DNA from: Gelria sp. Kuro-4
GTDB taxonomy: Bacteria; Bacillota; DTU030; DUMP01
Assembly: GCF_019668485.1 (NCBI RefSeq)
Contig: NZ_AP024619.1
Location: 2,082,001 to 2,146,000, forward strand
Direction of reading: 5' to 3'
DNA: 64,000 nucleotides
In this document: positions 11,726 to 19,355 of the stretch, in pieces
How the letters are laid out: each line of letters begins with the position of its first letter
Numbering within the stretch: the first letter of the stretch is position 1
Translations under genes and position numbers: made by a program
The notes under the pieces: model-generated
What the model was told of the DNA's origin: nothing
Database searches by the model: none
Seen by the model: the letters and a program-made list of their open reading frames with translations, nothing else

Positions 11726-12697
11726 TTACCTGCCGGCGGCCTCGCCGGTGAGGCTCCAGCGGCCGCAGCGGTCGCCCCAGCGCGCCAGCACCCGGTCGCC
11801 GGCACGAATCTCCACCACCTCGCACTGGTTGGCGCAGCCGCTGCAGGAGCGGCTGGCCACCTGAAAACGCCAGCGGCTCACGTCAAAGCCCTGGAAGCGG
11901 GAAGGGCTGCCGTCGGCCACGGCCCGGCGGGCCAGCTGGGCGGCCCCCAGCGCCCCCATGACCGCGTGGTGCGCCGGTACCGTGACCGCCCGGCCCAGCG
12001 CCTCTTCAAAGGCCCGGCGCATGCCCACATTGGCCGCCACGCCGCCCTGAAAAAGAATAGGGGAGCGGATTTCCTTCCCTTTAGCCACGTTGTTCAGGTA
12101 GTTGCGCACCAAGGCCTGGCAGAGCCCGGCCACGATATCCTCCACCGGGTGTCCCAGCTGTTGCTTGTGAATCATGTCCGACTCGGCAAAGACAGCGCAG
12201 CGGCCGGCGATCCGTACCGGGTTGGCGGCTTTCACGGCCAGGCCGCCGAACTCCTCGATGGGCACGCCCAGCCGGGCCGCCTGGCGGTCGAGAAAGGAAC
12301 CCGTTCCGGCCGCGCAGACGGTATTCATGGCAAAGTCCACCACCACGCCGTGGCGGAGGATGATGATCTTGGAATCCTGGCCCCCGATCTCCAGCACCGT
12401 CTGCACGGCCGGGACCTGGCTCAAGGCGGCCACCGCATGAGCGGTGATCTCGTTTTTCACCGCATCGGCGCCCACCATGGCCGCCGCGAGCTGCCGCCCG
12501 CTGCCGGTGGTACCAACACCGGCGATGCTGAGGCGCGCAGGGATTTCCCGCTCCACGCAGGCCAGGCCCTCCTGCACGGCCCGGATGGGATTGCCGCGGG
12601 TCCTGAGGTAAAGGCTGGTGAGCACTTCCCCCCCTTCGTCTAAAAGTACCAGGTTGGTGCTCACCGAACCGACGTCAATGCCGAGATACGCCTGCAA
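11726..12697 (-). CDS. acyl-CoA dehydratase activase family ATPase (BadF/HgdC type)
   Basis: ASKHA-fold ATPase of the kind that activates 2-hydroxyacyl-CoA dehydratases by ATP-driven electron transfer. Nucleotide motifs are GIDVGSVSTN at 6-15 and EIGGQDSK at 103-110. Cys128 (in NTVCAAGTG) and Cys167 (in AGRCAVF) fit the inter-subunit [4Fe-4S] cluster ligands. A C-terminal addition has Cys285, 288, 292 and 311, suggesting another metal site. TTG start at 12697 behind GGAGGAACAGC. It overlaps the preceding gene and ends the series that follows spoVAF. No dehydratase substrate genes are nearby. Confidence 0.88.
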   Translation of the reverse strand: MQAYLGIDVGSVSTNLVLLDEGGEVLTSLYLRTRGNPIRAVQEGLACVEREIPARLSIAGVGTTGSGRQLAAAMVGADAVKNEITAHAVAALSQVPAVQTVLEIGGQDSKIIILRHGVVVDFAMNTVCAAGTGSFLDRQAARLGVPIEEFGGLAVKAANPVRIAGRCAVFAESDMIHKQQLGHPVEDIVAGLCQALVRNYLNNVAKGKEIRSPILFQGGVAANVGMRRAFEEALGRAVTVPAHHAVMGALGAAQLARRAVADGSPSRFQGFDVSRWRFQVASRSCSGCANQCEVVEIRAGDRVLARWGDRCGRWSLTGEAAGR

Positions 12698-13793
12698 ACG
12701 CTGTTCCTCCTTCTTTCTGCCGGCGCCGGGCGCACAGGAGGTCGCAGAAGGCCTCCAGCCGGGTGCGCACCCCTACCTCACTGGCATGCTCATCCAGCAT
12801 AAAGGTGAGGACAGGAATACCCACATCCCGGCTCACCTTGGGCAGGATGCTTTCCGCCACTATTTCCGGCATGCAGGTGAGCGGCGCCAGCTGAATAACC
12901 CCGTCAAAACCGGCGCGGGCGTAACGCACGGTCCAGCTGATGCTTTCCAGGCCGTGCCCGCCGACAAAGTGGCCCAGGTAGGGCGCAGCCAGGCGGTACT
13001 CTTCCCGGTCGTCCCTGAGGTGCAGGGAGTGTAGCACCAAGTTGGTTTTCACCCAGTCGCTGAGGTAGATGGAGCGCTCCACGATAGCGCCCATTTCCCC
13101 CAGCACGCGCTCCAACTCCAGGTTCACGGCCGGCTCCAGCACCGTGTAAATCTCGCCCACGATCCCGATGCGCAGCGGGGCCTCGCCTTCCCGGCGAGGC
13201 AGAGCCTTAAGGAGTACCTTCCCCCGGCGGGCCGCCTCCTCCACCTCCGGCACGCTGCCGGCTTCATCCACCTGGTCGAGAATCCTTTGCCACGCCCTGG
13301 TGGTGGCCCCGCGCTCACCTTCCTGCGCCCGCGCCCGATGCACCTCGTGTTCCAGTTCGTCCAGGACGGTCAGCTTGCGCCAGGCCAGCCGGCCGGCCCG
13401 CCAGATCTCCCGCAGGCCGGCCCCGCCGGTGATGTCGCGCAGGCCCTGCCAGAGTTCCCGCCAGTGGCCCTGCGGGGGCTCCAGCACCACCATGCGCAGA
13501 TTTACTCCCAGGTCGCGCAAGATTTCCTGCTCCACCTGGGCGTAATAACCGAAGCGGCAGGGTCCCACCCCGCCGGCCATCACCACGGTATCCGCCCCTT
13601 TGCGGGCCGCCTCAAGGAAGTTGCCCACGTTCACCTTGAGCGGCAAACAGGCGAACTCCGGTGCATAGCGCGTCCCCAGGCTCAGCGTCTCCCGGCTGAC
13701 CGGAGGAGGCACCACCACCTCCACCCCCAAGGCCGTAAAAAAAGCGCGCAGCGGGATATAGATGTGCCCCATATGAGGAAAAGTCACCTTCAC
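12675..13793 (-). CDS. activase-associated protein, COG3581/HgdB-like
   Basis: Relative of the dehydratase component and of the C-terminal part of large multidomain activases. The GTG at 13793 overlaps the upstream stop (GTGA) and has GGAGGGG before it. Conserved points are ACLPLKVNVGNF near residue 54, GGVGPCRFGYY near 78, LTCMPE near 305 and the FMLDEH stretch near 330; the cysteines could hold an iron-sulfur cluster. The substrate is not evident. It lies between a paralogue-like DUF2229 gene and the activase gene and likely forms one complex with them. Confidence 0.8.
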   Translation of the reverse strand: MKVTFPHMGHIYIPLRAFFTALGVEVVVPPPVSRETLSLGTRYAPEFACLPLKVNVGNFLEAARKGADTVVMAGGVGPCRFGYYAQVEQEILRDLGVNLRMVVLEPPQGHWRELWQGLRDITGGAGLREIWRAGRLAWRKLTVLDELEHEVHRARAQEGERGATTRAWQRILDQVDEAGSVPEVEEAARRGKVLLKALPRREGEAPLRIGIVGEIYTVLEPAVNLELERVLGEMGAIVERSIYLSDWVKTNLVLHSLHLRDDREEYRLAAPYLGHFVGGHGLESISWTVRYARAGFDGVIQLAPLTCMPEIVAESILPKVSRDVGIPVLTFMLDEHASEVGVRTRLEAFCDLLCARRRQKEGGTAFAGVSRH

Positions 13794-14746
13794 GACGCGC
13801 CCCTCCATTCGATCATGTCCAGGAAAGCCTCCACGCGGGTCACCAAACCGCCTTCACCCGTGTGCTCATCCAGGGTTAAAAGGAGAAAGGGTAAGCGTCC
13901 CCGGCGGTGGGCGCGGCGTTCCAGGAGCTCGCCCACCAGGGAGTCGGGGCCGCAGCCGAAGGACACCACGTGGATGATGCCGGCGACACCGCCCCCGCGC
14001 AGGTAGTGGCCGCCTGCGCCTAGGATGAGCCGGCCCAGGCTCCAAAAGAGCGACTTGGGAAGCCGTGCCGCCTCGGCGGCGATGAGCCGGCTGGGCAGCA
14101 TCTCCGCGGTAAGCACGCGGTAACCCCGGCGCTTAAGGCGCGCGATGAGTCCCATGTTGACAAACTCGTCGAAGACGTTGTAAGGGTGTCCCAGCACCAA
14201 GAGGGTGCCCTTAACCGGTGCGGCCGCTGCTTCCGGGGCCACGCCTTCCTCCTCCAGGGGTGCCCTCCCCTCACCCAGGCGCACCAGGTAACGCGCCTGT
14301 TCGCCGGCGGCCGCCCGCCAGGCGGCCCTGGCGTCCGCAACCGTAAAGCCCAGCACCCGGGCCGTATTAAGCAGGCTGTTCTCCCAGGCCCGGCGCCCCA
14401 GGCGGGCGTTCAACGTGGGCCCGAGCACCGGGGGGAGCTTCAGGCCGGCATGGCGCAGCATGTCCGGCAGGCCCATGAGCTTAGGACAGATGTAGGTTCC
14501 CGGCTCGGCGCTCACCAGCCGCGGCACGAAAAGATAATCCACCCGGGGAACCAGCTGGAGGGTGTGGCCGTAGAACACCTTCACCGGCAGGCAGGCCTCG
14601 GGGACGGCCGCCAGGACTCCCTGGTTGAGGATCTCCTTGGTGGTGGGCGGGGAGGTCACCACCTCCACACCCAGGCGCTGCCAAAAGGTCAGCCAGAGCG
14701 GGTGGTAGTGGTAGTAGAGCAGGGCGCGCGGTATGCCCAGCCGCAT
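13790..14746 (-). CDS. activase-associated protein, DUF2229/COG3580-like
   Basis: Similar in plan to the neighbouring COG3581-like protein: a start of the form MRLGIPRALLYY, an EACLPVKVFYGH motif near residue 54, a CPK motif near 88, FGCGPDSLV near 265 and LTLDEHTGEGG near 290. The ATG at 14746 has an AGAGGTG site 7-10 bases upstream; a GTG four codons earlier is an alternative. It starts 16 bases after the spoVAF stop with no terminator between, so it appears to belong to the spoVA transcript. Confidence 0.8.
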   Translation of the reverse strand: MRLGIPRALLYYHYHPLWLTFWQRLGVEVVTSPPTTKEILNQGVLAAVPEACLPVKVFYGHTLQLVPRVDYLFVPRLVSAEPGTYICPKLMGLPDMLRHAGLKLPPVLGPTLNARLGRRAWENSLLNTARVLGFTVADARAAWRAAAGEQARYLVRLGEGRAPLEEEGVAPEAAAAPVKGTLLVLGHPYNVFDEFVNMGLIARLKRRGYRVLTAEMLPSRLIAAEAARLPKSLFWSLGRLILGAGGHYLRGGGVAGIIHVVSFGCGPDSLVGELLERRAHRRGRLPFLLLTLDEHTGEGGLVTRVEAFLDMIEWRGAS

Positions 14747-14762
14747 TCTCAGCTTCACCTCT

Positions 14763-16229
14763 TCACGTGTTATCAGCGCGGGGCGGGAGCCGGTCCGGGT
14801 CCTGGGGATGCAGGGCCCGCGGCCGGAACCTTTTCACGGGGATGGGGCGGCGCAATAAAATATCCCAGAGGGCCGCACCGTCCCAGGGCAGGAGCGGCCA
14901 GAGGTAGGGAACATTAAAGGATTTGGTAGCCGTAAGGAGGATAAAGAGTCCGATGAGACCGGCGGCCAGCCCCGTTCCTCCCCAGGCACCCACCAGTATG
15001 AGCAGTGCCAGCCGGCAGAGCCGGACGGCCATGCCGAACTCGTAGCTGGGGGTAGCGAACGTCCCCACCGCGGCGATGGCCATGTACACCACCACCTCGG
15101 GTATAACCAGCCCGACCTTGGACGCAAAGTCGCCGATCATAAAGGCGGCGATGATGCCGAGGGCGGTGGCCAGGGCGCTGGGCGTGTGAATGGCGGCCAT
15201 GCGCACAAGATCAAGGCCTAGTTCCGCAAAGACAAACTGGAAGAAAAGGGGCACCTTCCCCAGCTTCTGCGGCCCGATAAACTTGAGGGCCGCAGGCACA
15301 ACCTCGGGGTGGAGGGCAAAGAGCAGCCAGAGCGGGGTGACGATGAGCGACGCGGCCACGCCGAAGAAACGCACCCAGCGCAGGTACGCTCCCACCAGCG
15401 GGTTCTGCCGGAATTCCTCGGCGTGCTGCACATGGTGAAAGAGCGTGGCCGGGGCGATGATGGCGCTGGGTGAAGTGTCCACCAGGATCAGCACGTGTCC
15501 TTCAAGAATGTGCACGGCGGCCACGTCGGGACGTTCGGTGTAACGCACCTCGGGAAAAGGGTTCCAGGTGCCCAGGGTAAGAAATTCCTCAACCGATTTT
15601 TCCGCCATGGGCAGGCCATCGATATCGACGGCCTTGAGGCGCTCCTTAATGAGCTTAACCAGTCCCGGGTCCGCAATGTCTTTGATGTAGACGACGGCAA
15701 TATCGGAGAGCGACCGCTTTCCTGCCTGCTGCAGCTCCACCCGGAGCTTGGGGTCACGAACGCGCCGGCGGATGAGAGCAGTATTGAAAACAAGCGTTTC
15801 GGTGAAACCGTCGCGCGAACCGCGCGTTACCCGTTCAATATCCGGCTCTTCCGGGCCGCGCGCCGGGTACTCGCGCGCGTCAATGACGATGGCCTCCCGC
15901 TGCCCATCGATAATGAGGGCCACGGGCCCGGCCAGTACCTGCTTGGGGATGTCCTCCAGGGAGTCAACGGTGTCAACCTCAATGTAACCGATGTACTGCG
16001 CCAGCAGTTTTTGGATGGGTTGCGGAGCGACCTTGTCGGGTGTAAGACCCTGCAGAATCTGCAGCAGCCGCAGCAGGACCTGGTCCTTGGCGAAGCCATC
16101 CACAAAGATCAGCGCCGCCTCCCGCCCGGCCACCGTCAAACGCCGGGAAACAATATCGAAGCTTTCCTCAAGGCCGAGTTCGGCCTCGAGATAAGCAAGG
16201 TTGTCCTCGAGCTTCCGGGCCAGCTCCAC
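14763..16229 (-). CDS. spoVAF: stage V sporulation protein AF (GerA-type)
   Basis: Spore inner-membrane protein of the GerAA family, part of the SpoVA dipicolinate channel operon. The first 240 residues are soluble (DGFAKD near 43, PQPIQKLL near 93) and the rest contains about five membrane segments. The motif DTSPSAIIAPATLFHH near residue 251 and FRQNPLVGAYLRW near 272 are typical of the family. GTG start at 16229 behind GGGGGGACGAGG. The charged tail of about 25 residues is ordinary. Confidence 0.95.
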   Translation of the reverse strand: MELARKLEDNLAYLEAELGLEESFDIVSRRLTVAGREAALIFVDGFAKDQVLLRLLQILQGLTPDKVAPQPIQKLLAQYIGYIEVDTVDSLEDIPKQVLAGPVALIIDGQREAIVIDAREYPARGPEEPDIERVTRGSRDGFTETLVFNTALIRRRVRDPKLRVELQQAGKRSLSDIAVVYIKDIADPGLVKLIKERLKAVDIDGLPMAEKSVEEFLTLGTWNPFPEVRYTERPDVAAVHILEGHVLILVDTSPSAIIAPATLFHHVQHAEEFRQNPLVGAYLRWVRFFGVAASLIVTPLWLLFALHPEVVPAALKFIGPQKLGKVPLFFQFVFAELGLDLVRMAAIHTPSALATALGIIAAFMIGDFASKVGLVIPEVVVYMAIAAVGTFATPSYEFGMAVRLCRLALLILVGAWGGTGLAAGLIGLFILLTATKSFNVPYLWPLLPWDGAALWDILLRRPIPVKRFRPRALHPQDPDRLPPRADNT

Positions 16230-16240
16230 CCTCGTCCCCC

Positions 16241-16591
16241 CTAGCCCTTCGGGTTAAAGAGGAGCGCCATGGCAAAGCCGAAGAAAACCGCCGCTGCGAT
16301 GCCCATACTGGTGTTCTTAAACACCCCGCTTAAGATCCCCACGGCACCCTTGGCATCGATTTCCTCAAACACCCCGCTCACAATGGAATAGCCGAAACCG
16401 GTGAGCGGAATGGTTGCTCCCGCTCCCCCCACCTGCACGAGCTTTTCGTAAATCCCCAGCCCGCTGAGCAGGGCGCCCAGGGAGACAAATAGAACCAGTA
16501 CGTGGGCCGGCGTCAACGGTGTCAGGTCCATCAGGAGTTGGCCCACAGCGCAAATGGCTCCTCCCACCACAAAAGCCAGTAGGTACTGCAC
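16241..16591 (-). CDS. spoVAE: stage V sporulation protein AE
   Basis: Small membrane subunit (116 residues) of the channel that moves dipicolinic acid into the forespore and out at germination. Hydrophobic helices and the GAGATIPLTGFGYSIV motif near residue 56 match SpoVAEb. GTG start at 16591. Packed between spoVAD and spoVAF with short gaps. Confidence 0.93.
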   Translation of the reverse strand: MQYLLAFVVGGAICAVGQLLMDLTPLTPAHVLVLFVSLGALLSGLGIYEKLVQVGGAGATIPLTGFGYSIVSGVFEEIDAKGAVGILSGVFKNTSMGIAAAVFFGFAMALLFNPKG

Positions 16592-16615
16592 GGTACATGC
16601 CCCCTACCCTCGCAC

Positions 16616-17629
16616 TTAGACTTTTTCCACGGATACAGCGTGGGCAATGCACGGTATGGATTCACCCTGCTGGTAAGAGGTGGGGCTGAGCAGCGCCCCG
16701 GTACTCACCAAAAGCACCTTGCGCCACTTGCCGCTCAGGAGCCCGCTGTAAAAGTAGCCGGAAAAAACCGCTCCCGAACAGGCGCACCCGCTCCCGCCGG
16801 CGTGCACATCCTGGTCCGGCCGGAAGATCAGCACCCCACAATCGGTATAATTGCGGCTGAGGTCATAGCCTGCTTCCGCCAGCATGTCCTCCGCCAGGGC
16901 CTTGCCCACGCTCCCCAGGTCGCCGGTGGCGATGACATCGTAATAATCCGGGGAGCGTCCCGTGTCCACAAAGTGCTGCTTGATGGTGGCCACCGCCGCA
17001 GGCGCCATGGCGGAACCCATATCGTTCACATCTTTGATACCCATGTCCACCACCTTGCCCGCTGTGGCACAGGTGAGGGCGGCACCGGAACCGCTTTCCC
17101 CGATGACGGCCGCCGCTGCTCCTGTTACCGTCCACTGCGCCGTGGGCTTGCGCTGTACCCCCAGCTCGGTGGGGAAGCGGTACTGCCGCTCTGCCGTCTG
17201 GTAATGCGAAGAAGCAGTGACCAGCGTCCGCGCGGCAAAGCCGCCGTCCAGGGTGATGCCAGCCAGGGAAAGGGCTTCGGCGAAGGTGGAGCAGGCTCCA
17301 AAGAGGCCGTAAAAAGGGACCGGTACGTCACGGGCGGCGAAGTTGGAGGCGATAATCTGGTTTAATAGATCGCCGCCGAACATGAAATCCAAATCGCCGT
17401 AAGCGAGGTTTGCCTTCTTGAGCGCCAACCCGATGGCGCTCTGCACCATTTTCGACTCGGCCTTTTCCCAGCTCTTCTCACCGAAAATCGGGTCGGTAAC
17501 CACCTGGTCAAAGTACCCGCCCAACGGGCCTTCGCCTTCTTTTTTGCCGACCACGCTCGCCGCACTGAGAATGGGCAGCGGCCGGCTGAAGAGAAAGGTC
17601 TGCTGGCCCACCTTTTTGCTCTGTGCCAC
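16616..17629 (-). CDS. spoVAD: stage V sporulation protein AD
   Basis: Thiolase-fold protein that binds dipicolinic acid as part of the SpoVA machinery. The GTG at 17629 has a GGAGG site 7 bases upstream and gives the family start AQSKKVGQQTF; the frame could run to a TTG at 17659. FGACSTFAEAL near residue 110 holds the cysteine equivalent to the thiolase site, and GSGCACSG near 285 and the FRPDQDVH stretch before it are conserved. Length 337 residues is normal. Confidence 0.95.
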   Translation of the reverse strand: MAQSKKVGQQTFLFSRPLPILSAASVVGKKEGEGPLGGYFDQVVTDPIFGEKSWEKAESKMVQSAIGLALKKANLAYGDLDFMFGGDLLNQIIASNFAARDVPVPFYGLFGACSTFAEALSLAGITLDGGFAARTLVTASSHYQTAERQYRFPTELGVQRKPTAQWTVTGAAAAVIGESGSGAALTCATAGKVVDMGIKDVNDMGSAMAPAAVATIKQHFVDTGRSPDYYDVIATGDLGSVGKALAEDMLAEAGYDLSRNYTDCGVLIFRPDQDVHAGGSGCACSGAVFSGYFYSGLLSGKWRKVLLVSTGALLSPTSYQQGESIPCIAHAVSVEKV

Positions 17630-17640
17630 ACCCGTGCCTC

Positions 17641-18096
17641 CTAGAGCTTTGTCAACCAATAGATAAGGCCGACCAGTACGGCTGTTACCGTTCCATAGAC
17701 TAGAACCGGCCCGGCCACCACAAACATGCGGGCGCCGACCCCCAGGATAAAGCCCTCCCGCTTGAACTCCATCGCCGGCGAGACGATGGAGTTGGCAAAG
17801 CCGGTGATGGGAACCACCGATCCGGCGCCGGCAAACTTGCCGAGTTCGTCATACCAGCCCAGGCCGGTAAAGAAGGCCCCTAAGAAAACCATAACGCTGG
17901 CCGTGGGGCCAGCGGCTTCTTTCGCCGACATGCCCAGGGACTGAAAGAAGGTGAGCACCGCCTGCCCGAGAACGCAGATGAGGCCGCCTACCACAAAAGC
18001 CAGAACCGTGTTTCGGAGAACCGGTGGCTGGGGCTTTTTTTGTTGCACCCGCCAGTAGTAGAGTTTTTTGTCGAGGTTGGGAGCTTGCGCCGTCAC
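17641..18096 (-). CDS. spoVAC: stage V sporulation protein AC
   Basis: Membrane subunit of the spore dipicolinate channel; SpoVAC of Bacillus acts as a mechanosensitive channel. 151 residues with four hydrophobic stretches, and the paralogous motif GAGSVVPITGFANSIVSP near residue 91 that it shares with SpoVAE. GTG start behind GGAGGTGAGACG. First gene of the operon, preceded by a SigF/SigG-like promoter. Confidence 0.95.
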   Translation of the reverse strand: MTAQAPNLDKKLYYWRVQQKKPQPPVLRNTVLAFVVGGLICVLGQAVLTFFQSLGMSAKEAAGPTASVMVFLGAFFTGLGWYDELGKFAGAGSVVPITGFANSIVSPAMEFKREGFILGVGARMFVVAGPVLVYGTVTAVLVGLIYWLTKL

Positions 18097-18121: not shown

Positions 18122-18151
18122 TATTTTTTCTGGATTCCTGGAACCTTATGC
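18122..18151 (-). promoter_or_regulatory. SigF/SigG-like forespore promoter of spoVAC
   Basis: On the minus strand GCATA is followed after 15 bases by AGAAAAAATA, close to the SigF/SigG patterns (GYATA ... GGnAAnAnTA). It lies 26 bases before the spoVAC start. The spoVA operon is SigG-dependent in Bacillus, which supports the reading. The -10 match is partial. Confidence 0.5.
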
Positions 18152-18277: not shown

Positions 18278-18487
18278 TCATTCGGTCCCGTCCACGGGAA
18301 AGGCGATCTTGCAGTTGGCCTTGTACTCCACAACGTCGCCATTTTGCACGTTGGCGGTAAGGTTGTAGATTTCCACGCCCGAGATGTTGCGGACGGTCTT
18401 GGAAGCTTGCTTTACGGCATCGCGAACCGCCCCGTCCCAGCTATCCTTCGACTCGCCCACCACTTCTATCACCTTGACGACTGTCAC
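18278..18487 (-). CDS. dodecin family flavin-binding protein
   Basis: Dodecins form hollow dodecamers that store flavin or CoA-type ligands. The 69 residues show the family pattern: VVKVIEVVGES at 3-13, a helix with SWDGAVRDAVKQAS, then strands with GVEIYNLTANVQNG and EYKANCKIAF. The GTG start at 18487 has a GGAGGTACGCCG site. It stands between the sigF operon terminator and the spoVA promoter as its own short unit. Confidence 0.93.
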   Translation of the reverse strand: MTVVKVIEVVGESKDSWDGAVRDAVKQASKTVRNISGVEIYNLTANVQNGDVVEYKANCKIAFPVDGTE

Positions 18488-18573: not shown

Positions 18574-18595
18574 AAAAAAGCGGGTCCTTACCCGC
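18574..18595 (-). terminator. intrinsic terminator of spoIIA-sigF
   Basis: GCGGGT-AAGG-ACCCGC followed by six T on the minus strand. The stem overlaps the last sense codons and stop of sigF. Confidence 0.85.
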
Positions 18596-19355
18596 CGGCC
18601 ATCAACCGCTTTATTTTCAGCAGCACCTGTTTTTCCAGGCGCGAGATCTGGACCTGTGAAAGCCCCAGCTCGGCCGCCACCTCCGCCTGGGTTTTGTCGG
18701 CGTAAAAGCGTTCCTGGATGATGAACCTTTCGCGCGGGGTCAACTTTTCCAGCACCTGGCCAAGGAGCACGTGCTCCAGGATTTCCTCGCCCTCTTCCTC
18801 CCCCAGTTGGTCCTCCACGTTGATGGCTGCTCCCTCGTCCTGGTAGATGGGGTCGGAAAGCGAGGCAGGTGCCTGGGTAGCCTCCAACGCGGCCACCAGC
18901 TCTTCCGCTGGTACTCCCACCTCGGCCGCCAGCTCGCTCAAGGTCGGTTCCCGCCCCAAACGTTGCCCGAGAGCGCCGGCGGCCCGCCGGGCGCGCAGTG
19001 CCGTCTCTTTAAGGGAGCGGCTGACCCGGACGGGATTGTCGTCGCGCAGAAAGCGGCGGATCTCGCCCACAATCATCGGAACGGCGTAGGTGGAAAACTG
19101 CACCCCGTAGCCGAGGTCAAATTTGTCGACGGCCTTCATCAAGCCGATGGTGCCGACTTGAAAAAGATCTTCAAATTCGTACCCGCGGCCGCAGAAACGC
19201 CGCGCAATCCCCACCACCAGGCGCAGATTGTCCTGAATCAACTTCTCGCGGGCAGCGCGGTCTCCCGCCTGGGCCCGCCGTACCAGGCCGGCTACCTTCT
19301 CCGGGTCTTCCACCGTTCGCTCCGGCAGGTCCAGGTTGACGTAGCGCTCAGTCAT
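18588..19355 (-). CDS. sigF: RNA polymerase sigma-F factor
   Basis: Forespore-specific sigma factor. Region 2 has FEDLFQVGTIGLMKAVDKFD near residues 61-80 and the helix-turn-helix of region 4 has TQAEVAAELGLSQVQISRLE near 222-241. 255 residues is typical. It overlaps the end of spoIIAB by 8 bases. Activity should be held by SpoIIAB until the asymmetric septum forms. Confidence 0.97.
   Translation of the reverse strand: MTERYVNLDLPERTVEDPEKVAGLVRRAQAGDRAAREKLIQDNLRLVVGIARRFCGRGYEFEDLFQVGTIGLMKAVDKFDLGYGVQFSTYAVPMIVGEIRRFLRDDNPVRVSRSLKETALRARRAAGALGQRLGREPTLSELAAEVGVPAEELVAALEATQAPASLSDPIYQDEGAAINVEDQLGEEEGEEILEHVLLGQVLEKLTPRERFIIQERFYADKTQAEVAAELGLSQVQISRLEKQVLLKIKRLMAGG

Follow-up and report, generated by a model that had tools for sequence, protein, structure and literature searches.

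The three genes that close the spoVA operon of Gelria sp. Kuro-4 probably encode a complete reductase dedicated to sporulation, an ATP-driven, low-potential iron–sulphur system that would be made in the forespore. The third protein, C, is an archerase. The other two, A and B, carry in structure models the fold of the catalytic subunits that such archerases serve. Because A and B combine this fold with three invariant cysteines each, the trio looks like a complete archerase together with its two-subunit reductase. The association between the trio and spoVA is real and ancient. All coordinates without a locus name refer to the window, the stretch of 64,000 nucleotides that was analysed.

The trio closes the spoVA operon

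On the minus strand, the gene order is sigF, dodecin, spoVAC, spoVAD, spoVAE, spoVAF, A, B, C and lysA. The features are as follows.

18588-19355, minus: sigF
18573-18544, minus: strong sigma-G/F-like promoter upstream of the dodecin gene, GTATG-N18-CATACTA
18278-18487, minus: dodecin gene, between sigF and spoVAC (PF07311, E 1e-26)
18151-18118, minus: weak sigma-G/F-like promoter of spoVAC, with GCATA at 18151
17641-18096, minus: spoVAC (TIGR02838, 191.8 bits, cut-off 164)
16616-17629, minus: spoVAD (TIGR02845, 483 bits, cut-off 411.8)
16241-16591, minus: spoVAE (AEB) (TIGR02839, 152 bits, cut-off 131.1)
14763-16229, minus: spoVAF, GerA-type (PF03323, E 2e-152)
13790-14746, minus: A, DUF2229/COG3580-like subunit (invariant Cys 52, 87, 265)
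12675-13793 (or 13808), minus: B, COG3581-like subunit (invariant Cys 54, 84, 312, numbered from 13808)
11726-12697, minus: C, BadF/HgdC archerase (TIGR00241, 187.7 bits, cut-off 125.4)

The genes spoVAC, spoVAD and spoVAE follow sigF in this order, each above its NCBIfam equivalog cut-off, which identifies the operon as spoVA, whose products bring dipicolinic acid into the spore. The sequence-only reading had placed the trio 16 bases behind spoVAF with no terminator in between, and both the coordinates and a scan of the junction agree with it. The 16-base gap contains the Shine-Dalgarno sequence GAGGTG ahead of the ATG of A at 14746. Neither a sigma-70 promoter nor a terminator was found in the minus-strand scan of this junction, and its fold z-score is -0.09. 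The translational overlap of the COG3580-like, COG3581-like and BadF/HgdC genes, as initially described, also holds: A and B share the four nucleotides GTGA when B starts at its GTG, or 19 nt when it starts at the ATG at 13808, and B and C overlap by 23 nt. The promoter of lysA (TTGACA-N18-TATGAT, 11699-11670) begins 27 bases past C, and a lysine riboswitch (11637-11454, minus) stands ahead of lysA, directly after the trio. Since lysA has its own promoter and riboswitch, the trio is the end of the transcription unit.

Recurrence with spoVA and other sporulation genes

The pairing that was noticed in this single stretch recurs widely in relatives. Among 41 relatives, about 20 genomes besides the window carry the trio directly after spoVAE/spoVAF or within a few genes of it. 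A scan of GTDB species genomes yields 80 named loci, with the same order in Thermincola, Fervidicola, Tepidanaerobacter, Orenia, Natroniella and Halonatronum as well as in Desulfofundulus, Pelotomaculum, Carboxydocella, Carboxydothermus, Moorella thermoacetica and heliobacteria.

Co-occurrence was quantified across 200 sampled genomes of the phylum by a DNA signature for B of the spoVA clade, GPCR[FIL]G[YF]Y, for which the reversed control gives 0 matches. The signature is present in 112 of 173 SpoVAD-positive genomes versus 1 of 27 SpoVAD-negative genomes, a co-occurrence for which the Fisher test treats genomes as independent and ignores shared ancestry. As the signature is absent from 61 of the 173 SpoVAD-positive genomes, sporulation in general does not require the trio. 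Of the 113 positives, 73 have the signature no more than 20 kb from spoVAD (median 3.2 kb), on the same strand and downstream in 73/73. Nineteen further positives adjoin sigF, spoVAF or other spoVA genes, and at least three more belong to a cluster of the type spoIIP-DUF3189-spoVAEA-A-B-C. Adding the 70 positives with the trio no more than 6 kb from spoVAD brings the signature genomes that have it beside sporulation genes to at least 92 of 113. The absence of the pairing from relatives, which the sequence-only reading had named as a refutation, is thus not what the genomes show.

An old gene order may also persist by descent, and gene order here is generally old. The trio could thus be a passenger of spoVA, an ATP-driven reductase of general anaerobic use that has remained in place with no role in sporulation; homologous fused and second-clade forms are in fact found at a distance from sporulation genes and in genomes that lack SpoVAD. 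We consider this explanation unlikely, as the spoVA clade is nearly missing from SpoVAD-negative genomes and relocated copies are often found beside sigF, spoVAF or spoVAEA-spoIIP, or with forespore-type promoters. A function dedicated to sporulation remains our preferred reading.

The neighbours of relocated trios were screened for a common pathway, and none emerged. An ABC transporter, RodZ, WhiA, ThiF and others adjoin relocated trios in single lineages each. In several lineages the gene after C encodes a TrpB-like PLP enzyme, including cases in which the trio is no longer at spoVA:

L186, 10180-11544: TrpB-like PLP enzyme gene after C
L178, 10137-11528: TrpB-like PLP enzyme gene after C
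L253, 15108-16484: TrpB-like PLP enzyme gene after C

In one related family, C stays after spoVAF and A-B has moved elsewhere in the genome (L127, L129 and L130 compared with L103-L106). In the ten genomes where A-B has no adjacent C, C is encoded elsewhere in 10/10, with 62-68% identity over nearly full coverage.

Forespore-type promoters and the dodecin gene

The sequence-only reading called the forespore an unexpected setting for an ATP-driven electron-transfer activator, should the trio share the spoVA transcript. This setting stands as a prediction: the conserved operon, promoters at some relocated trios and the sigma-G dependence of spoVACDE in C. difficile (PMC3789822) make forespore expression of the trio well supported. 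Because a strict sigma-G regular expression gave almost no matches, promoters of forespore type were called with a hand-made matrix (p<0.05). At about the place of the weak spoVAC promoter, the close relatives L077 and L078 have GCATAA or GTATAA followed by CAAACTA. A strong hairpin lies between the dodecin gene and spoVAC. Among relocated or set-apart trios of the spoVA clade, 9/34 have a forespore-type promoter 55-112 nt before A (p<0.05), these nine falling in about four lineages; the count is 1/15 for second-clade trios. A site of this type precedes A in 13 of the 80 linked loci.

The dodecin gene is located between sigF and spoVAC in 47 of the 55 loci that hold both genes, and forespore-type promoters precede it in 29/70 loci (p<0.05). 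Dodecin is a flavin-binding protein. A literature search over titles and abstracts found no publication on a link of this kind between dodecin and sporulation. The dodecin gene with its forespore-type promoter is thus a second conserved feature that is apparently undescribed.

C is an archerase with a conserved four-cysteine extension

C matches the archerase family profile PF01869 with 166.9 bits against a cut-off of 31.5, and likewise TIGR00241. C aligns to HgdC (1HUX), and its Cys128, Cys167 and GGQDSK do not vary across an alignment of 44 sequences; it so combines the two cysteines expected for the dimer-bridging [4Fe-4S] cluster with the ASKHA motifs of an archerase. Its C-terminal extension has the pattern Cx2Cx3Cx18C. 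These extra cysteines (285, 288, 292 and 311), pointed out from the first inspection of the sequence, are invariant in alignments of 32 and of 44 sequences. The suggestion that they mark a special sporulation feature was rejected, as the extension occurs in both clades of the trio and likewise in the fused relatives.

A and B have the fold of catalytic subunits

C had initially been described as an activator with no dehydratase subunits nearby. The structure models contradict this, as A and B themselves have that fold. The AlphaFold models, built on 61 sequences for A and 70 for B, are confident (A, pLDDT 92 and pTM 0.90; B, pLDDT 90 and pTM 0.89). In a Foldseek search against the PDB, the best 14 matches of A and the best 17 of B are solely chains of DCCP, HadBC, MbdON and BzdNO, with TM-scores of 0.45-0.58, which is similarity at the level of domains, and 11-16% identity to HadBC. 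For A and B, Pfam gives just a match to DUF2229 and weak similarity to the final 60 positions of PF06050 (HGD-D), at 20 and 22 bits and thus below the cut-off of 28.4. A comparison by hhalign shows that the two subunits are homologues (99.9%).

Exactly three cysteines are invariant in each subunit, C52, C87 and C265 in A and C54, C84 and C312 in B. The third of A aligns with a cysteine of DCCP (E 3e-6), and the third of B aligns weakly with a cysteine of HadC and of DCCP. In BzdO, an open aqua-[4Fe-4S] cluster is held by Cys95, Cys128 and Cys380 (PMC11971306), and the three cysteines of A and of B match these in order and approximate spacing. Six cysteine thiolates are the ligands of the double-cubane cluster described for BzdN (PMC11971306); such a set for an [8Fe-9S] cluster is not present in A or B with their three invariant cysteines each. 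By subunit fold and by the three-cysteine pattern, which predicts an open [4Fe-4S] cluster, A and B fall into the superfamily of dehydratases, class I benzoyl-CoA reductases and DCCP, and the models indicate that they are themselves subunits of the catalytic type.

We regard it as very unlikely that A and B are accessory domains in an activator complex whose target, a dehydratase or reductase, is encoded at another locus, even though C is a canonical activase and A and B stay under the curated dehydratase-family cut-off. The catalytic-subunit fold and the cysteine pattern argue against it, and so does the genome itself: the loci of its three full-length HGD-D genes, two at 170-173 kb and one at 646-648 kb, include their own archerases. 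All four archerases of the genome adjoin a partner of HGD-D or A-B type, with A-B pairs at both trios, so that the idea of an activator lacking its dehydratase is not supported. The further proposal that the three genes are split parts of a large activase is supported by fused relatives of about 1,400 residues, in which the same modules follow each other as activase-[4 Cys]-A-B in a single chain.

Two clades of the trio

A tree of A+B resolves the spoVA-linked trios from a second clade, with SH-aLRT values of 98 and 95; the other trio of this genome belongs to that clade, as do copies at different kinds of loci. The paralogous trio of this genome (L014, 7804-11235; genome C1:1824-1827 kb) is found after spoVK, a GTPase gene and ynbB and before lexA, an arrangement conserved in the family and class of the source genome. 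Next to the cluster cysteines, several positions distinguish the two clades (85, 86 and 270 in A; 57, 86 and 313 in B). Since the residues there are constant inside a clade and not the same in the other, different substrates are suggested for the spoVA clade and the second clade.

Related ATP-driven reductases re-reduce cofactors, and an open [4Fe-4S] site is no proof of catalysis. A-B could accordingly be a non-catalytic electron relay or cluster-repair device, charged by C, that keeps iron–sulphur or corrinoid enzymes of the forespore reduced before dormancy or at germination. This is quite unlikely in our assessment, as the differences beside the cluster cysteines are better matched by two substrates than by a single general relay.

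Proposed mechanism and function

For a catalytic A-B pair, we propose the following sequence of events, deduced from family membership and conserved residues. C would dimerise into an ATPase whose two subunits hold a [4Fe-4S] cluster between them through Cys128 and Cys167. A second cluster in the extension (Cys 285, 288, 292 and 311) probably accepts electrons from a carrier. Hydrolysis of ATP by C would push single electrons of very low potential into an A-B heterodimer, in which A and B may each hold a [4Fe-4S] cluster by three cysteines with one iron site open. At the open site in A or B, radical chemistry, either reduction or elimination, could then take place on a small metabolite or cofactor of the spore.

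More tentatively, we propose that the trio is a conserved forespore radical reductase acting on a spore-specific small molecule during maturation or germination. The substrate is conceivably aromatic, for example dipicolinate, or may belong to a pool of flavin or CoA that the neighbouring dodecin would hold. A role of the trio as a substitute for DpaAB was rejected, as DpaA is about equally common with and without the trio signature (about 98/113 signature genomes versus about 54/61 SpoVAD-positive genomes without it, estimated by hand with negatives among the matches listed). In the family of the source genome and its sister family (G001-G009), DpaA (dipicolinate synthase) was not found at E 1e-30 and SpoVAD is present, so dipicolinate is made another way there or not at all.

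Archerase systems driven by ATP have been described in fermentation and in the breakdown of aromatic compounds. That one of them holds a fixed place at the tail of the spoVA operon in many families of anaerobic spore formers suggests that spores mature or germinate with the help of a redox step, which the aerobic model Bacillus subtilis would not reveal. The open literature searched contained nothing relevant on the trio, its COGs or activases in connection with sporulation, although an earlier listing in the 2005 Carboxydothermus genome paper or in the DCCP papers is possible; the association of an archerase-type reductase with spoVA is apparently undescribed. To our knowledge, as far as this literature shows, the widespread DUF2229/COG3580/COG3581 proteins are apparently uncharacterised, and the spoVA operon offers a well-defined setting for finding their function. 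It also provides a named, deletable set of genes in the culturable Moorella thermoacetica, Carboxydothermus and Heliobacterium.

Comparison with known systems

The pieces of the trio belong to a known superfamily. The A-B pair is not among the members characterised so far, and its setting is new. From Carboxydothermus, DCCP and its reductase DCCP-R (PDB 6ENO, 7YYL) share with the trio the fold of A and B, the adjacent archerase and a homologous C-terminal cysteine segment. However, DCCP is a homodimer with a six-cysteine double-cubane cluster, whereas the trio has two different subunits with three invariant cysteines each, and its C carries the additional four-cysteine extension. The (R)-2-hydroxyisocaproyl-CoA dehydratase HadBC with HadI resembles the trio in having a two-subunit partner of the same fold and an activator of BadF/HgdC type. 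HadBC uses three cysteines per cluster. The trio differs from it in staying under the PF06050 cut-off, in the low identity of the fold alignment (11-16%) and in its setting, which is sporulation and not fermentation. With class I benzoyl-CoA reductases (BzdNOPQ, MbdONPQ), the trio has in common the fold, the ATP-driven design and a three-cysteine site like that of BzdO. In contrast to them, it contains no six-cysteine double-cubane subunit, has one type of activase where they have two, and has no aromatic pathway genes nearby. The large fused activase (about 1,400 aa, HgdC-DUF2229-COG3581) contains the same modules and the same four-cysteine motif. It has a second, N-terminal activase copy and the order C-A-B, whereas the trio is split, has the order A-B-C and is located beside spoVA.
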